A DNA stretch of 56,410 nt from a virus: positions 1 through 56,410 of the IMG/VR virus record IMGVR_UViG_3300008111_000025; one strand, 5' to 3'. The first letter of the stretch is position 1. Each line of letters begins with the position of its first letter. The translations under genes were made by a program, and so were the position numbers. The notes below the pieces were generated by a model. It did no database searches, was not told the DNA's origin, and saw only the letters and a program-made list of their open reading frames with translations. This document shows positions 10,389-56,410 of this stretch, piece after piece.

Positions 10389-10977
10389 GGAATCCCTTCT
10401 CAGTCAGGATGTTATAGAGGTATTTCCTCTGATTAGTATCGTAATCTTTAATAAACATACAATCCATTCTTTTTAATTCCAAAAAATAAGATAACATTGA
10501 GTCAATAAATCTTGATGAATCATCATCATTTTTGAAGGTGAATAATTTAAATACATCATCATTTTGAACAATAATTTTGTTATTTAACTTGGAAACCATT
10601 TTAAGACCTGGCGAGTCTAAATATTTTTTAATAAATGTAGTGGTGTTTATTTTTTTCTTAGTGTTATAATCAAGGAAAAATTCATCAATATTATATGGGT
10701 TTATTTTAGTTATAATGTGTTCATTTTCATCTAACTCAACTTTTATTTGCCTACCAATATTGTCTTTTATAAATAAAGAATTGATGTTATTAGATTTTGG
10801 CTCTAAAAGACCTAATTCATAATTGGATTCAAATCCGTTATCGTATTGTTTAGAAAATATAATATTCTCACTTTTATCTATTAGTGTTTTATAAAAATTT
10901 TCGGCACGTTTAAATGTTTTAAATTTCTTTATTATTTTCTTTTTTACTTTATTTTTAAACAGAACAATCATGTACAT
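10339..10977 (-). CDS. Unknown protein on minus strand
   Basis: Up to 212 residues; the start is at 10977 or, two codons in, at 10971 (MIVLFKNKVKKK). The N-terminus is strongly basic; the rest is alpha/beta with many Asn, Lys and Asp and no membrane segment. It converges on and overlaps the plus-strand gene ending at 10388. No family is recognised. Confidence 0.65.
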   Translation of the reverse strand: MYMIVLFKNKVKKKIIKKFKTFKRAENFYKTLIDKSENIIFSKQYDNGFESNYELGLLEPKSNNINSLFIKDNIGRQIKVELDENEHIITKINPYNIDEFFLDYNTKKKINTTTFIKKYLDSPGLKMVSKLNNKIIVQNDDVFKLFTFKNDDDSSRFIDSMLSYFLELKRMDCMFIKDYDTNQRKYLYNILTEKGFPKSYLFRQSTTHPTKR

Positions 10978-31796: not shown

Positions 31797-32663
31797 ATGA
31801 TAGAAAATTATTTAGGAAAAATCACCAATGGTGATTGTGTTAAAGTGATGTCGGAAATGCCGATTGATTCGGTTGATTTAATTGTTACATCACCACCTTA
31901 TGGAGTCGGGATTGCCTATGACGTACACGACGATGATGTATATTTTGATGAGTATCTTAAATTTACCAAAGAGTGGTTGACTGAAGCTTACCAAATATTA
32001 AAAGATGATGGTAGGATTGCGTTAAACATTCCTTATGAAATTAATAGACAAGACAAAGGAGGTAGAATATTTTTTGTATCCGAAGTATACCAAGTAATGA
32101 AACGAATTGGTTTTAAGTTCTTTGGTATTGTTGACCTTGAAGAAGATTCACCTCATCGTAGTAAAACAACTGCTTGGGGTTCATGGATGAGTCCGAGTTC
32201 GCCGTACATATATAACCCGAAGGAATGTGTGATTTTAGCGTACAAAAACAAACACATTAAGAAAGTTAAGGGTGAACCACAATGGAAGGGTGAAACCGTA
32301 GAGATTGAACAAGAAGACGGAACATTCAAAAAGAAAGTGGTATACGATGAAATGGATAAGAAAGAGTTTATGGAATTGGTGTTCGGTCAGTGGAAGTATT
32401 TTGCGGACACTAAATCATTAACTAAAGCAACATTCTCAATGGATATCCCAACGAAAGCCATAAAAATATTATCATATAAGAATGATGTAATATTAGACCC
32501 ATTCGCGGGTTCAGGAACAAGTTTGGTTGCTGCTGAGATATTAGATAGAAGATGGATAGGTATTGAATTATCACCTAACTATCAACAAATTGCAACAGAA
32601 CGAGTCCAAGCATTTGTTGAACAAAAAAGACAACAACAATTAGAATTTGAGAATCCCCAATAA
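31797..32663 (+). CDS. DNA methyltransferase with TSPPY motif (beta class, N4-cytosine or N6-adenine)
   Basis: 288 residues. The catalytic TSPPY is near the start (residues 31-35, VDLIVTSPPYG) and the SAM-binding FAGSGTS comes near the end (DPFAGSGTSLVAAEILDR). This circular order is the beta class and makes it distinct from the Dam-type enzyme at 13179. Ser in the motif allows either N4-cytosine or N6-adenine. It probably protects phage DNA. A terminator overlaps its stop. Confidence 0.88.
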   Translation: MIENYLGKITNGDCVKVMSEMPIDSVDLIVTSPPYGVGIAYDVHDDDVYFDEYLKFTKEWLTEAYQILKDDGRIALNIPYEINRQDKGGRIFFVSEVYQVMKRIGFKFFGIVDLEEDSPHRSKTTAWGSWMSPSSPYIYNPKECVILAYKNKHIKKVKGEPQWKGETVEIEQEDGTFKKKVVYDEMDKKEFMELVFGQWKYFADTKSLTKATFSMDIPTKAIKILSYKNDVILDPFAGSGTSLVAAEILDRRWIGIELSPNYQQIATERVQAFVEQKRQQQLEFENPQ

Positions 32664-37319: not shown

Positions 37320-37985
37320 TTATATTATTTTTGAACCTTTACTTAAATTATCTTTCGCCCATAAAGGTTGTAAATTATCTAACGAATTAACCACTGACAT
37401 TTTTTCATTTTTATCAAAACTTGATACTGGTTTAATATGGTCAATATGCCATTCACCCCTATTACTCCAAGACATACCCTCAAGGAATTTAGATTCAATA
37501 TGTTCTTTTAAATCCTGAGCCGAATACCCTAACATCTCAATTGTTTTACTTTCTTTTTTTGTATTAAATCTTTTTAGTGAATTGTTTAATAAAGTCCTCC
37601 AAGAGATGATATGTGCATTTTTTTCTTTATTTTTTTCTTTATTTTTTTGTTTTGATTTTCGTTGCAATAGTTTTAATTTTTCTTGATTATTTTCCCTGTA
37701 TAATAATTGTCTTTCTTTTATTTTATCTAAATTTTCATAATAGTATTTTCTAAATCGTTCTTTTTCTTTTTCATTATTTTTATCACGATATACTTTATTA
37801 TATTTTGATTTATTTTTTTTGTTTTTTTCTAATATTATATTTTTATTATTTTTATAATACGCATTACTACGATTAATTGCGCATATTTTACAATCAGACG
37901 ATAAACCATCTTTTCTGTTTTTGTTTTTATGGTATTCTGAAATACTTTTTTCTATTTTACAAATATTACAAATCTTTGTTTCCAT
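37320..37985 (-). CDS. HNH homing endonuclease
   Basis: 221 residues on the minus strand. A zinc-type N-terminal CNICKIEKSIS...CKIC motif is followed by a very Lys/Asn-rich middle (encoded by TTCTTTATTTTT-like repeats). The C-terminus has the HNH core EWHIDHIKPVSSFD and NLQPLWAKDNLSKGSK. It is a free-standing homing endonuclease, immediately downstream of a small RHH-like gene that overlaps its start by 20 bases. Confidence 0.9.
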   Translation of the reverse strand: METKICNICKIEKSISEYHKNKNRKDGLSSDCKICAINRSNAYYKNNKNIILEKNKKNKSKYNKVYRDKNNEKEKERFRKYYYENLDKIKERQLLYRENNQEKLKLLQRKSKQKNKEKNKEKNAHIISWRTLLNNSLKRFNTKKESKTIEMLGYSAQDLKEHIESKFLEGMSWSNRGEWHIDHIKPVSSFDKNEKMSVVNSLDNLQPLWAKDNLSKGSKII

Positions 37986-51439: not shown

Positions 51440-52279
51440 GTGCAAAACAAAAAGATTATAAATTTTACTCCCACAGGTACTCAACCCACAAGGGAGAATT
51501 CATACGCACCTCTTGAACCAAATCAAATTATTGAGGAGGTTCATGAGGCTTATGAATATGGTATTACAATGACTCATATTCACGCGAGACATCCTGAAAC
51601 ATTAAAAAATAGTAATGATAAAAACCATTACAGACCAATCATTGAAGGTTTACGAGAACATTGTCCTGACTTAGTTATTTGTGTTTCATTAACAGGTAGG
51701 TTAGAACCTGACTTTAATAAAAGGTCTGAAGTGTTAGAGTTACTTCCCGATATGGGTTCATTAACAATGTCATCAATTAATTTTCCAACGGGAGAATCAA
51801 TCAATTCTCCTGAAGTTATTTTAAAATTGATTGATAAAATGAAAACATATGGAGTTACACCTGAAATAGAATGTTTTGATAGTGGCATGTTAAATTACAC
51901 AAATTACCTCATCAATAAAGGAATTCTTGAAGGTCCACATTACATTAATGTTATTTTAGGTAACATTTATAATGCTCAATCTGATTTACCAACAATATCG
52001 TCAATATTGACTAATAAACCAAAAGATAGTATTCTTTGTATAGGTGGAATAGGTAAAGACCAATTAAAATCAAATATTGTCGGGTTATTATATGCGGATG
52101 GTATTAGAATTGGTCTTGAAGATAACTTATATTCAGTGGGTAAAACTAAGACAACTAATATGTGGTTATTAAAAAGAATATTTAATATCATAGATGAGAT
52201 AAACATTGATATTATGACACCAAAAGAATTTAAAGAATTAGGATATGGGAATAAGTTACATAACAATAGTAGGATTTAG
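51440..52279 (+). CDS. BKACE (DUF849)-type beta-keto acid cleavage enzyme
   Basis: 279 residues, starting at GTG 51440. BKACE hallmarks are the zinc-binding THIHARH near residue 48, NFTPTGTQPTRE at the start, GSLTMSSINFPTG, TPEIECFDSGML and ILCIGGIGKDQLK. The family cuts beta-keto acids with acetyl-CoA to give acetoacetate and a CoA ester. Length and key residues look intact. It is the first gene of a tightly overlapping set with O-acetyltransferase, aminotransferase-like and glycosyltransferase genes, so a role in making an acyl or keto sugar side group is plausible. A phage-borne BKACE is unusual. Confidence 0.85.
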   Translation: MQNKKIINFTPTGTQPTRENSYAPLEPNQIIEEVHEAYEYGITMTHIHARHPETLKNSNDKNHYRPIIEGLREHCPDLVICVSLTGRLEPDFNKRSEVLELLPDMGSLTMSSINFPTGESINSPEVILKLIDKMKTYGVTPEIECFDSGMLNYTNYLINKGILEGPHYINVILGNIYNAQSDLPTISSILTNKPKDSILCIGGIGKDQLKSNIVGLLYADGIRIGLEDNLYSVGKTKTTNMWLLKRIFNIIDEINIDIMTPKEFKELGYGNKLHNNSRI

Positions 52280-52889
52280 TGAGGCAACTATCACTATGAT
52301 TCTTGATATTTTAGACTCACAAGAATTTTACCCAACAATTGATATTATCAACAATTTAGGGTTGGAACCAACTAAAGAGTATAAACACCCAAACTTTGAA
52401 ATTACTCTAATTGATGGCATTGATTTAAATAATAAATTATTTGTGTTAGGTGTGACTAAACCACATTTAAGAAAGAAGGTTACTGAAATGTTTGACCTTG
52501 AAAATCAGGGTCACCCAATGTCACTAATTTCAAAAAATGCGGATATATCAAAAACTGTTGATTTGGGTAAAGGTGTTGTTGTTAATACTATGAGTTGTAT
52601 TGCGGGTCATACTAAAATAGATGATTTTGTATTTATTAATAGGAATGTCAGTATTGGGCATCATACCACTATTGGTAAGTATACTACAATAAATCCTGGT
52701 GCTAACATTGCAGGAAATATAACTATAGGTGAGTGTTGTCAAATAGGGATTGGTACTAATATAATTGACGGTGTTAAGATAGGTAATAATACAATAATTG
52801 GTGCAGGTTCGTTAGTTACTAAAGATATTCCTGATAATGTAGTTGCTTACGGAAACCCCTGTAAAATAATTAGAGAAAATGAGGCATAA
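52245..52889 (+). CDS. NeuD/PglD-type sugar O- or N-acetyltransferase (left-handed beta-helix)
   Basis: 214 residues. The N-terminal Rossmann-like part begins GISYITIVGFSEATITMILD and the C-terminal half has hexapeptide repeats (VVVNTMSCIAGHTKIDDFVF, SIGHHTTIGKYTTI, NIAGNITIGE). The active-site type His pair is in the SIGHHTTIG segment. The family acetylates sialic acid- or bacillosamine-like sugars. The start overlaps the BKACE gene by 35 bases, i.e. in a different frame. Confidence 0.85.
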   Translation: MGISYITIVGFSEATITMILDILDSQEFYPTIDIINNLGLEPTKEYKHPNFEITLIDGIDLNNKLFVLGVTKPHLRKKVTEMFDLENQGHPMSLISKNADISKTVDLGKGVVVNTMSCIAGHTKIDDFVFINRNVSIGHHTTIGKYTTINPGANIAGNITIGECCQIGIGTNIIDGVKIGNNTIIGAGSLVTKDIPDNVVAYGNPCKIIRENEA

Positions 52890-53475
52890 TCCGTATAAAA
52901 TAGTTCAAATGTTTGAGGAAGAAATTGCCGAATATACTGGGGCACCTTATGCGGTTGCATTAGATAATTGCACTGACGCATTATTCCTTTGTTGTGTTTA
53001 TTCAAAAGTCACTGAAGTAACCATACCTAAAAAAACATATCTATCTGTTCCGCAAGCTATCATGGCTTCAGGTGGTAAAGTTTTATTTGATGACACGGAA
53101 TGGAGTGGAGTTTATGAATTAAAACCTTATGGGATATATGATTCCGCAAGGAGATTTACCAGTGATATGTATATACCTAATAGTTTTATGTGTCTTTCAT
53201 TTCATCCTAAAAAAATATTAAAAATGAGAAAAGGTGGAATGATTTTAACCGATAATGAAGATGCGTACAAATGGTTTAAAAAGGCCAGACACGAAGGTAG
53301 AGATGAAATACCATACACTCAAGACAACATTAAATTTTTGGGTTGGAATATGTACATGACACCACCAGATGCTGCTGAAGGATTGTGGTTAATGTCATCA
53401 ATGTCAAAACATAATAACGATACATTTGAGGATTATCCCGATTTAACTAAAAATGATTTATTTAAATTATTATGA
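52879..53475 (+). CDS. DegT/DnrJ/EryC1-type sugar aminotransferase-like protein, short
   Basis: 198 residues. The N-terminal half of the fold is clear: FEEEIAEYTGAPYAVALDNCTDAL (substrate/PLP phosphate site), VTIPKKTYLSVPQAI and CLSFHPKKILKMRKGGMILTD (PLP lysine in HPKK). The usual about 150-180 residue C-terminal domain is missing: the frame stops at 53475, right at the next gene. It could be a true truncated form that needs a partner subunit, or a degraded gene. It overlaps both neighbours. Confidence 0.75.
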   Translation: MRHNPYKIVQMFEEEIAEYTGAPYAVALDNCTDALFLCCVYSKVTEVTIPKKTYLSVPQAIMASGGKVLFDDTEWSGVYELKPYGIYDSARRFTSDMYIPNSFMCLSFHPKKILKMRKGGMILTDNEDAYKWFKKARHEGRDEIPYTQDNIKFLGWNMYMTPPDAAEGLWLMSSMSKHNNDTFEDYPDLTKNDLFKLL

Positions 53476-54122
53476 TAACTAAAATTAACGAAGTACCGAT
53501 AGTCTTACATACAATGGATTCATATTCCGCTTATTGGGACAATTGGTATTATTTATTTACTAAACATTGTAAAAATCACGGACCAATTGTGTTTTTAACT
53601 GAGGAAAACCCCCCATCATTTGTTAATAATGTTAAACATATTAAAACAGGTAAAGGTGAATGGGGGTATAGATTATTAAATGGTCTTAATCAAATAGAAA
53701 GTGAATTAATTATTTATATGCAAGAAGATTTTTGGCCAAAAAAAGATTTAGTCTTAACTGACGACCATTTAAAAATTTTTTATGAAAAAGAGATGCAATG
53801 TCTTAAGATAAATAATATTGTATTTCCAATAAAAACCGATATTATTGAAGGTAATTTATGTAAAGTAAGACAAAATTCTCCATATTCCTTAACACATCAA
53901 TTTGGTATTTGGGATAAAAAATTTTTTATAAAACATATTTTACCAAATGAAAATCCTTGGAATAATGAAATATTGGGAAGTGAAAGAATAAATAAAAATC
54001 CACATAACATTTATCAAATAAATTATGAATGGTATGCTAAAGTTTGTAGTAGAGGAACATTGAATAATAATGGTAAAAAAATGTTAGAAATGTATAAATT
54101 AAAATTTTATGGTAAGACATAA
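53472..54122 (+). CDS. Glycosyltransferase-like protein (GT-A-like)
   Basis: 216 residues. N-terminal IVLHTMDSYSAYWDNWYYLF, then GYRLLNGLNQIESELIIYMQEDFWPKKD, a GT-A-like nucleotide-sugar site in which the DxD is replaced by QEDF. C-terminal W-rich segment (ENPWNNEILGSERI). Start overlaps the previous stop (ATGA). Likely a glycan-chain or capsular-sugar transferase; the modified DxD lowers certainty. Confidence 0.65.
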   Translation: MITKINEVPIVLHTMDSYSAYWDNWYYLFTKHCKNHGPIVFLTEENPPSFVNNVKHIKTGKGEWGYRLLNGLNQIESELIIYMQEDFWPKKDLVLTDDHLKIFYEKEMQCLKINNIVFPIKTDIIEGNLCKVRQNSPYSLTHQFGIWDKKFFIKHILPNENPWNNEILGSERINKNPHNIYQINYEWYAKVCSRGTLNNNGKKMLEMYKLKFYGKT

Positions 54123-54717
54123 CACGTTACATATAATAACTGCTCTGTATAGATTTGAGAATCTTGAAAAAATACATAATTCCATTTACATGAATGATGA
54201 CATCGTTTGGCATATCTCCAAGTCAAATGAGAGAGAAGATTTAACTAACAATTTTATTAAAACCGATAAACGAGTTAAGGTGTATAATGTTGAATGTGAA
54301 GATTCGGATACAACATCAAAAAGAAATGTCGTTCTTGAAACTATAAAAGATGGGTATTTTTGTTTTTTAGATGATGACACTATTTTTCATGAAAATATGT
54401 ACATCAAATATCGTGAATGCGTTGAGAATAGTTTTGTTGGTATTTTGGTTGGTGAGCAATTAGATTGGGATGGAAAATTAAGATTGATTGCACATTTTCC
54501 AAAATATTGTAGAATTGATACTGGTAATGTATTAGCTCACCATTCTTGTTTGGAAACTTGTAGATGGCCTGATACCCATATACCCAAAGTCAATGAGAAA
54601 GATTCTATTTTTTGGGAATCAGTGTATGACTATTACGGAAAAAAATGTGCAATATGGAATCAACCAATTTCATATTACAATCAAATCAGTAAAAAAATAA
54701 TAAAATACAAGAAATAA
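54109..54717 (+). CDS. Glycosyltransferase (family 2-like, DDD motif)
   Basis: 202 residues. GT-A pattern with HIITALYRFENLEKIHNSI, TSKRNVVLETIKDGYFCFLDDDTIFHENM (FLDDD is the metal-binding DxD-type motif) and WESVYDYYGKK. It overlaps the previous gene by 14 bases and completes the five-gene set. It probably transfers a sugar in the cytoplasm. Confidence 0.8.
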   Translation: MVRHNTLHIITALYRFENLEKIHNSIYMNDDIVWHISKSNEREDLTNNFIKTDKRVKVYNVECEDSDTTSKRNVVLETIKDGYFCFLDDDTIFHENMYIKYRECVENSFVGILVGEQLDWDGKLRLIAHFPKYCRIDTGNVLAHHSCLETCRWPDTHIPKVNEKDSIFWESVYDYYGKKCAIWNQPISYYNQISKKIIKYKK

Positions 54718-55171: not shown

Positions 55172-56410
55172 ATGAAAAAACTATTAATAATACTATTTAC
55201 TGTTATTTCATTCATTAATCTTGGTCAGGTAACTTTGTTTTCTGAAACGTTTGAAACCGCGAATTCATTAACTTTAGTAAATGGAACACAAACTAACAAA
55301 TGGTTCCGAGGTACTGCTAATCAATGTAATGGAACAGGAGCACTTTACATATCAAACAATGCAAGTGCTTATGCATACACAAACACATCAATATCAGTAG
55401 TTCATGCTTATTTTGACATAACAGTACCAGCCTCCGTAACTAATATTACATTAAATTTTAATAGAAAAGTTGTAGGAGAGTCTACATGTTCAACATGTGA
55501 TTATCTACAAATTTGGTCTTGTATTAATACATTTACTCCAACGGCAGGTACTTTAGTTACTGCAAACGCAAACAGGGTTTTACAAGGAACTATAAGCAAC
55601 AGTGCTATTTGTACTACTACTAGTTATACCCTACCAAACGCAATTGCTGGTACAACCAGGAGAATAATATTCAGTTGGAGGAATGATGGTAGTGCTGGGA
55701 CTATACCAGCGTTAATTGATAATATAACAGTTACATACACAAATCCTACAGCACCAACCTGTGCATCATTATCAGCACCATCAAATGGAGCAACGGAACG
55801 TCCTTTAAATCAAGTCATATCTTGGGCTGCAACTGCCACCGCAACCGGTTATGATGTTTATTTTGGTACATCCGCAACACCACCTTTAGTATCATCCAAC
55901 CAAGCTGGTACCTCATATACACCAACACTTGCTGGTGGAACAACTTATTATTTTAAAATAGTTCCAAAAAATGGTGTCGGTGATGCTTCGGGATGTAACA
56001 CGTGGTCTTTTACAACAGCTTCACCACCCTCAAACGATGCATGCTCCGATGCTACAAGTTTACCTTGTGCTACATCTGCTTTAGCTGGAACAACAGTAAA
56101 TGCTGTATCCGAAACAGCACCAAACTCATCCACCACAGGAACAATGGGTGTATGGTATAAATTTACAGGAGATGGTAGTACAACAACACTTACTGTGGTA
56201 CAAGGATTTGATACTAGATTGTTAGTTTTAACAAGCAATACAGGTGCTTGTGGGGGAACATATACAACAGTTGCAAATGTAGATAACATAACAAGCTCAA
56301 ACGAAATTGCAACATTTACAGCCACAAGTGGAACTGTTTATTTTGTTTATATAGGTCATTACAATTCAACAACTACAGGTACATTTACTATATCTAGAAC
56401 ATGTGTTACC
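55172..56410 (+). CDS. Secreted multidomain protein with fibronectin-like domain, 3' partial
   Basis: The frame is open from ATG 55172 to the window end (413 codons without stop). It begins with a signal peptide (MKKLLIILFTVISFINLGQV). The first about 190 residues form a beta-sandwich or jelly-roll-like region (LFSETFETANSLTLVNGTQT). A fibronectin type III domain follows (CASLSAPSNGATERPLNQVISWAATATATGYDVYF), then a region like cell-surface repeat domains (CSDATSLPCATSALAGTTVN, TGTMGVWYKFTGDG). It looks like flavobacterial surface proteins of the T9SS-exported type; the C-terminal domain is outside the window. Confidence 0.75.
   Translation, partial: MKKLLIILFTVISFINLGQVTLFSETFETANSLTLVNGTQTNKWFRGTANQCNGTGALYISNNASAYAYTNTSISVVHAYFDITVPASVTNITLNFNRKVVGESTCSTCDYLQIWSCINTFTPTAGTLVTANANRVLQGTISNSAICTTTSYTLPNAIAGTTRRIIFSWRNDGSAGTIPALIDNITVTYTNPTAPTCASLSAPSNGATERPLNQVISWAATATATGYDVYFGTSATPPLVSSNQAGTSYTPTLAGGTTYYFKIVPKNGVGDASGCNTWSFTTASPPSNDACSDATSLPCATSALAGTTVNAVSETAPNSSTTGTMGVWYKFTGDGSTTTLTVVQGFDTRLLVLTSNTGACGGTYTTVANVDNITSSNEIATFTATSGTVYFVYIGHYNSTTTGTFTISRTCVT

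Follow-up and report, generated by a model that had tools for sequence, protein, structure and literature searches.

The window, that is, the whole stretch of 56,410 bases of a virus record that was analysed, carries at 51440-54717 a cassette of five open reading frames (ORFs), whose coordinates are collected in Table 1 together with those of other features mentioned below. Successive ORFs overlap by 35 nt (BKACE/HEXA), 11 nt (HEXA/mini-DegT), 4 nt (mini-DegT/GT4) and 14 nt (GT4/GT5), and all five lie where a sequence-only reading had placed one unit of five overlapping genes. The identities proposed there for the beta-keto acid cleavage enzyme (BKACE), the hexapeptide acyltransferase (HEXA) and the DegT-type protein are secure, but only part of the claim of two glycosyltransferases held, as GT5 is probably such an enzyme and GT4 is weakly suggested to be one. 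The overlap of the genes was likewise confirmed; the conserved unit, however, is the BKACE-HEXA core, with a DegT gene usually next to it, GT5 often and GT4 rarely present, and not the full set of five. Other phage genes of the record encode an SbcC-like subunit, a tail fibre protein and a T4-type RNA ligase/tail-fibre attachment protein. The cassette shows no step in GC content, and scans for promoters and late promoters in its vicinity yielded nothing informative.

Table 1. Coordinates of the cassette genes and of further features in the window and in related sequences
Feature	Sequence	Position	Strand	Description
BKACE	window	51440..52279	+	279 aa, GTG start; PF05853 E=3.6e-61
HEXA	window	52245..52889	+	NeuD/PglD/PerB-type left-handed beta-helix acyltransferase; PF00132 E=1.6e-16
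mini-DegT	window	52879..53475	+	DegT-type, 198 aa; PF01041 E=1.1e-20, two separate stretches
GT4	window	53472..54122	+	putative GT-A-like protein, 216 aa, rare accessory member; low-confidence fold model
GT5	window	54109..54717	+	small GT2/GT-A-like glycosyltransferase (probable); LDDDT motif; relatives match PF00535
Methylase-like gene	window	31797-32660	+	resembles cyanophage DNA methylases
HNH endonuclease	window	37320-37985	-	motif HIDHIKPV
Secreted-looking protein	window	55172-56410	+	Bacteroidota-like; runs off the window end
HNH remnant	L035	about 10680-10810		C-terminal remnant of a relative of the window HNH endonuclease
Sulfotransferase-family gene	L007	9173-9742		PF17784
A4 family member	L204	7049-8011		family of 315-322 aa
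mini-DegT of phage immuto	L290	9001-9645		annotated WecE
BKACE of plasmid pRSE21	L291	6989-7858		subfamily signature

The acyltransferase and the BKACE subfamily

The designation of HEXA as a NeuD-type acyltransferase proved to be right in kind. Its best NCBIfam model by far is TIGR03570 (NeuD/PglB/VioB), matched with 153.4 bits, just under the cut-off of 160.8, and its best PDB match is the perosamine N-acetyltransferase 4ea7 (E=9e-21). The protein carries a hexapeptide beta-helix with a catalytic His (PF00132); the catalytic-type His139 aligns with the His of PerB that is Asn in 4eaa, and it is kept in 66/66 viral relatives. By these comparisons, HEXA appears to stand closest to the nucleotide-sugar N-acyltransferases, with their catalytic His retained. 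In one phage cassette (L007), a sulfotransferase-family gene is inserted between HEXA and mini-DegT.

BKACEs convert a beta-keto acid and acetyl-CoA into acetoacetate and an acyl-CoA (PMC12871164, PMC6365646). The PF05853 match of the cassette enzyme covers residues 5-267 with 207 bits against a curated cut-off of 24.8, and its PDB matches are 3no5 and Kce (3-keto-5-aminohexanoate cleavage enzyme, 2y7d). Loss of the zinc site had been named beforehand as a possible refutation of the proposed function, but the site is intact. A residue map to Kce places the ligands at H46, H48 and E227, with S83, E144, R223 and D228 also kept, and the zinc-binding and catalytic residues are invariant across 60 viral and 79 cellular relatives. 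Acetyl-CoA-dependent cleavage activity is predicted for the cassette BKACE. Family membership, zinc ligands and catalytic residues are shared with Kce and the canonical BKACEs; the cassette enzymes differ from them, however, by the residues of the pocket region, by their sugar acyltransferase partner and by equivalog scores below the cut-offs. They form a separate subfamily with an active-site signature of its own. Compared with 30 canonical Bacteroidia BKACEs, at positions assigned to the vicinity of the active site by homology, the subfamily carries the motif NFxPTG, where the canonical proteins mostly have (T/S)A(A/S)LTG, as well as T/S85 for G, S107 for A, T109 for N, S111 for G, N170 for S, N175 for V and Q180 for P. 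Assignment to Kce or to another characterised BKACE equivalog was rejected, as the enzyme stays far below every such NCBIfam cut-off (164.3 bits against 382 for the Kce model NF052387). The position of Kce Glu14, which we take to be the one recognising the amine, is Q15 in the window BKACE and in nearly all HEXA-linked phage members, and V/I in cells. Given this presumed role of Glu14, Gln15 argues against an aminated BKACE substrate.

The pocket-region differences (T/S85, S107, T109, S111, N170, N175) also bear on another explanation, in which the enzyme catalyses a condensation or an otherwise altered reaction and delivers a longer diketo or hydroxy acyl precursor instead of a shorter acyl-CoA. 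BsfD is a case of the same fold performing other chemistry (PMC12871164), and a 3,5-dihydroxyhexanoyl amide occurs in the O-antigen of Flavobacterium psychrophilum, although it is ascribed there to FAS-type genes (PMC6519341). Neither a ketoreductase nor an ACP was found repeatedly near the loci, and the replacement of Kce Tyr145 by Phe, considered as a mark of BsfD-like chemistry, is not diagnostic, because 29/30 canonical Bacteroidia BKACEs carry Phe there too. Altered chemistry of this kind is, in our judgement, quite unlikely.

Pairing of BKACE with HEXA and genomic context

A search of other genomes for BKACE beside NeuD/DegT genes had been proposed as a check. Profile searches over all open frames, with pairs counted on the same strand within 1.5 kb, detected HEXA near BKACE in 54/64 distinct viral loci and in 62/80 cellular loci; the latter counts are not independent, because these loci are the query's closest relatives and some genera contribute several of them. 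The distance is below 300 bp in 50 of the 54 viral and 53 of the 62 cellular pairs. HEXA lies mostly immediately downstream of BKACE, and in phage loci the two genes usually overlap by about 30-35 nt. The pairing is selective. A control set of 30 canonical BKACE loci, taken from 295 Bacteroidia genomes and a Marinifilum genome, contained no case of HEXA within 1.5 kb, and the subfamily BKACEs met in those Bacteroidia searches were mostly HEXA-paired. Marinifilum itself encodes one canonical and one subfamily BKACE, and HEXA pairs with the subfamily member only. This specific pairing and the conserved overlap, absent from canonical BKACEs, argue against an auxiliary metabolic role, in which BKACE would feed host carbon (acetoacetate, acetyl-CoA balance) with no relation to HEXA. 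One well-studied BKACE is indeed catabolic (PMC6365646), but for the cassette enzyme we hold such a role to be very improbable.

The same-strand neighbours of the cellular pairs are led by the GT2, DegT, ATP-grasp and WbqC families. Surface-polysaccharide genes are present in several cellular loci: the Lacibacter locus includes an ABC-2 exporter gene, DegT and GT2, that of Trichococcus a priming sugar transferase, and that of Draconibacterium WbqC and DegT. DegT and glycosyltransferase company is frequent in phages, and in phage L015 WbqC is located between BKACE and HEXA. Many cellular pairs stand alone or among non-glycan genes. Moreover, the Salmonella plasmid pRSE21 carries a BKACE with the subfamily signature whose riboflavin-like cluster (ribA, a ribD-like gene, riboflavin synthase, methyltransferase and MFS genes) has no gene annotated as an acyltransferase, which means that the subfamily is not exclusive to glycan loci. 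By analogy with flavophos (PMC12871164), this cluster may possibly be responsible for a flavin-type natural product with self-resistance. The numerous cellular pairs outside clear polysaccharide loci, the pRSE21 cluster and the production of a phosphonate antibiotic by a BKACE homologue (PMC12871164) would all fit a function in which BKACE-HEXA acylates a non-sugar amine, of a small molecule or peptide, with the glycosyltransferase company being secondary. We regard this as unlikely, since HEXA is nearest to enzymes acting on nucleotide sugars and has kept their catalytic His, and since DegT and glycosyltransferases recur alongside in phages and in several phyla.

Neither an acyl-CoA-forming partner nor a source of the beta-keto acid recurs among the neighbours. 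Of 16 records searched, namely the window and 15 relatives, 8 encode SDR nucleotide-sugar enzymes. No nucleotide-sugar dehydratase, epimerase or SDR was detected in the window, which is itself a fragment, and therefore sugar precursors of the host are probably used.

The half-size aminotransferase

In most relatives, mini-DegT measures some 200-230 aa, against about 360 aa for DegT proteins; missing are the entire C-terminal domain and about 60 residues inside the protein. The PLP-binding Lys112 and Asp88 are invariant in 25 relatives (alignment A2), and the phosphate-binding serine and the GxN motif are also kept. Foldseek matched the AlphaFold2 model (pLDDT 90.9) to DegT sugar aminotransferases over their large domain, with GDP-perosamine synthase 3dr4 as the best match (E=1.7e-10; TM 0.68 by query, 0.39 by target). 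Mini-DegT is therefore modelled as the large PLP domain of a sugar aminotransferase, for which catalysis is predicted. In L009, L032, L036 and L231 its place is taken by a full-length DegT of 367-368 aa (PF01041 E=5e-79 in L009), which identifies the slot as one for an aminotransferase. The possibility that mini-DegT is a pseudogene or one half of a split gene was rejected by its dN/dS of 0.05-0.08 and by the ORF-length distribution of 133 matches; a split gene is also opposed by the absence of a separate DegT C-terminal half from the window and the fetched viral loci.

Mini-DegT occurs without BKACE in 2/295 Bacteroidia genomes and in the isolated Flavobacterium phage immuto (MW353175). The glycan cluster of immuto resembles the cassette in that mini-DegT adjoins a PglD-like acyltransferase, and it also includes an epimerase, likewise adjoining, and glycosyltransferases, but it has no BKACE. 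This phage offers a laboratory model for the half-size aminotransferase.

GT5, GT4 and a further phage family

GT5 is probably a GT2/GT-A enzyme. The LDDDT motif is invariant in its family (alignment A3), and 10/15 relatives match PF00535, at best with E 1e-4, the window protein itself reaching E=0.043. GT5 lies within 4 kb of BKACE in 24/64 viral loci. GT4 gave no significant sequence match in family profile searches and has relatives in two viral contigs (L003, 77%; L236, 53%). The weak top matches of its poor fold model (pLDDT 62.8) are GT-A-type, which gives only a hint of a GT-A-like protein.

Many representatives of one half of the phage clade have, up- or downstream of the BKACE cassette, a member of a family of 315-322 aa (L204 and 17 relatives, alignment A4). 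This family has no Pfam, NCBIfam or PDB match, and its invariant EYD motif suggests a GT-A-like enzyme.

Selection and mobility of the cassette

Purifying selection acts on all five genes, with dN/dS of 0.05-0.23 across the cassette. In a BKACE tree built by a quick method without bootstrap, a clade of 53 viral and 4 cellular sequences receives full SH-aLRT support and branches from within a mostly Bacteroidota family. The cassette is mobile and moves between unrelated phages as a unit. In the phage contig L003 all five genes recur in unchanged order, with 68-81% protein identity and 76% DNA identity to the window over the five genes, and the flanks are without detected similarity. L035 is largely colinear with the window phage, yet its cassette is not located at 51 kb but is flanked by homologues of W11012 and W13179. 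Directly behind it lies an HNH endonuclease remnant, whose full-length relative is found in the window (Table 1), hinting that the mobility of the cassette may be linked to a homing endonuclease.

Between L002 and the window, BKACE is 89% identical and mini-DegT only 47%, and mini-DegT, GT4 and GT5 are exchanged independently. Such swapping would be expected of a passenger mosaic without a selected joint function, and a random mosaic not conserved in relatives had been named in the sequence-only reading as a second possible refutation. However, every gene is under purifying selection, the core order is kept in dozens of loci and L003 retains all five genes. The disfavoured mosaic is thus the most improbable of the explanations considered, and a random passenger is ruled out by conservation, selection and the canonical-BKACE control.

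Proposed function and relation to known systems

We consider it fairly probable that the cassette is a mobile phage module which makes and transfers an N-acylated amino sugar, using acyl-CoA supplied by BKACE. An acylated amino sugar, proposed from the beginning as the product, is still the best reading in view of the enzyme identities and the conserved pairing. In the pathway that we infer, including its chemical steps, acyl group, sugar and destination, mini-DegT would aminate a host-derived keto nucleotide-sugar via PLP. BKACE would convert a free beta-keto acid and acetyl-CoA into acetoacetate and an acyl-CoA shorter by two carbons, yielding in a single step, without ATP, an activated acyl group of an unusual kind. 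HEXA would then N-acylate the sugar amine with this group, and GT5, together with GT4 where present, would pass the sugar on to an acceptor, for which a glycan of the host surface is the likeliest candidate and a virion protein a less likely one. Superinfection exclusion and capsid decoration, put forward in the sequence-only reading, would be candidate purposes. For mini-DegT as for HEXA, the top structural matches belong to the GDP-perosamine pathway.

A DegT aminotransferase and a hexapeptide N-acyltransferase also stand side by side in PglE-PglD, PerA-PerB and WfpG. In those systems the donor is acetyl-CoA or comes from an ACP/ketosynthase set, whereas in the cassette it apparently comes from BKACE; the half-size aminotransferase is a further difference. 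BsfD of flavophos biosynthesis is likewise a BKACE-family enzyme recruited to biosynthesis, but its product is a phosphonate and the cluster as described is without sugar genes (PMC12871164). A precedent for a non-acetyl N-acyl group in Bacteroidota is the dihydroxyhexanoyl amide of Flavobacterium psychrophilum mentioned above, ascribed to ACP-dependent genes (PMC6519341). The BKACE reaction would supply the donor for such a group in one step; a FAS-type origin as in that species was rejected for the cassette, as no such genes recur nearby.

The sequence-only reading knew of no phage system linking a BKACE with sugar modification. The link is not phage-specific, because BKACE-HEXA pairs are common in Bacteroidota genomes, but the literature search found no paper connecting BKACE/DUF849 with O-antigen, polysaccharide, surface glycans, glycan modification or NeuD, and no annotated phage record with this BKACE was found. 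The pairing of a BKACE with a sugar acyltransferase thus appears to be previously undescribed, a provisional statement, because the literature searched excludes most subscription papers. More tentatively, and with somewhat less than an even chance of being right, a new general route to acylated glycans may be proposed, in which NeuD-type N-acyltransferases would receive exotic acyl-CoA donors from the BKACEs of a dedicated subfamily with which they are paired. This route would be widespread among Bacteroidota, with occurrences in other phyla, and many phages would have captured it as a mobile cassette, complete with a functional half-size aminotransferase, for re-decorating the host surface or the virion. 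If true, it would give a biosynthetic role to a large, so far unassigned BKACE subfamily and predict N-acyl sugars of a new class, both on the surfaces of Bacteroidota and in phage biology, while the half-size DegT aminotransferase would test the minimal working size of the fold. The enzymes are small, and the assignment is directly testable in vitro.

Other genes of the window

The secreted-looking protein downstream of the cassette has no Pfam or PHROG match. The product of the methylase-like gene is 85% identical in the relative L288, a high conservation for this phage.
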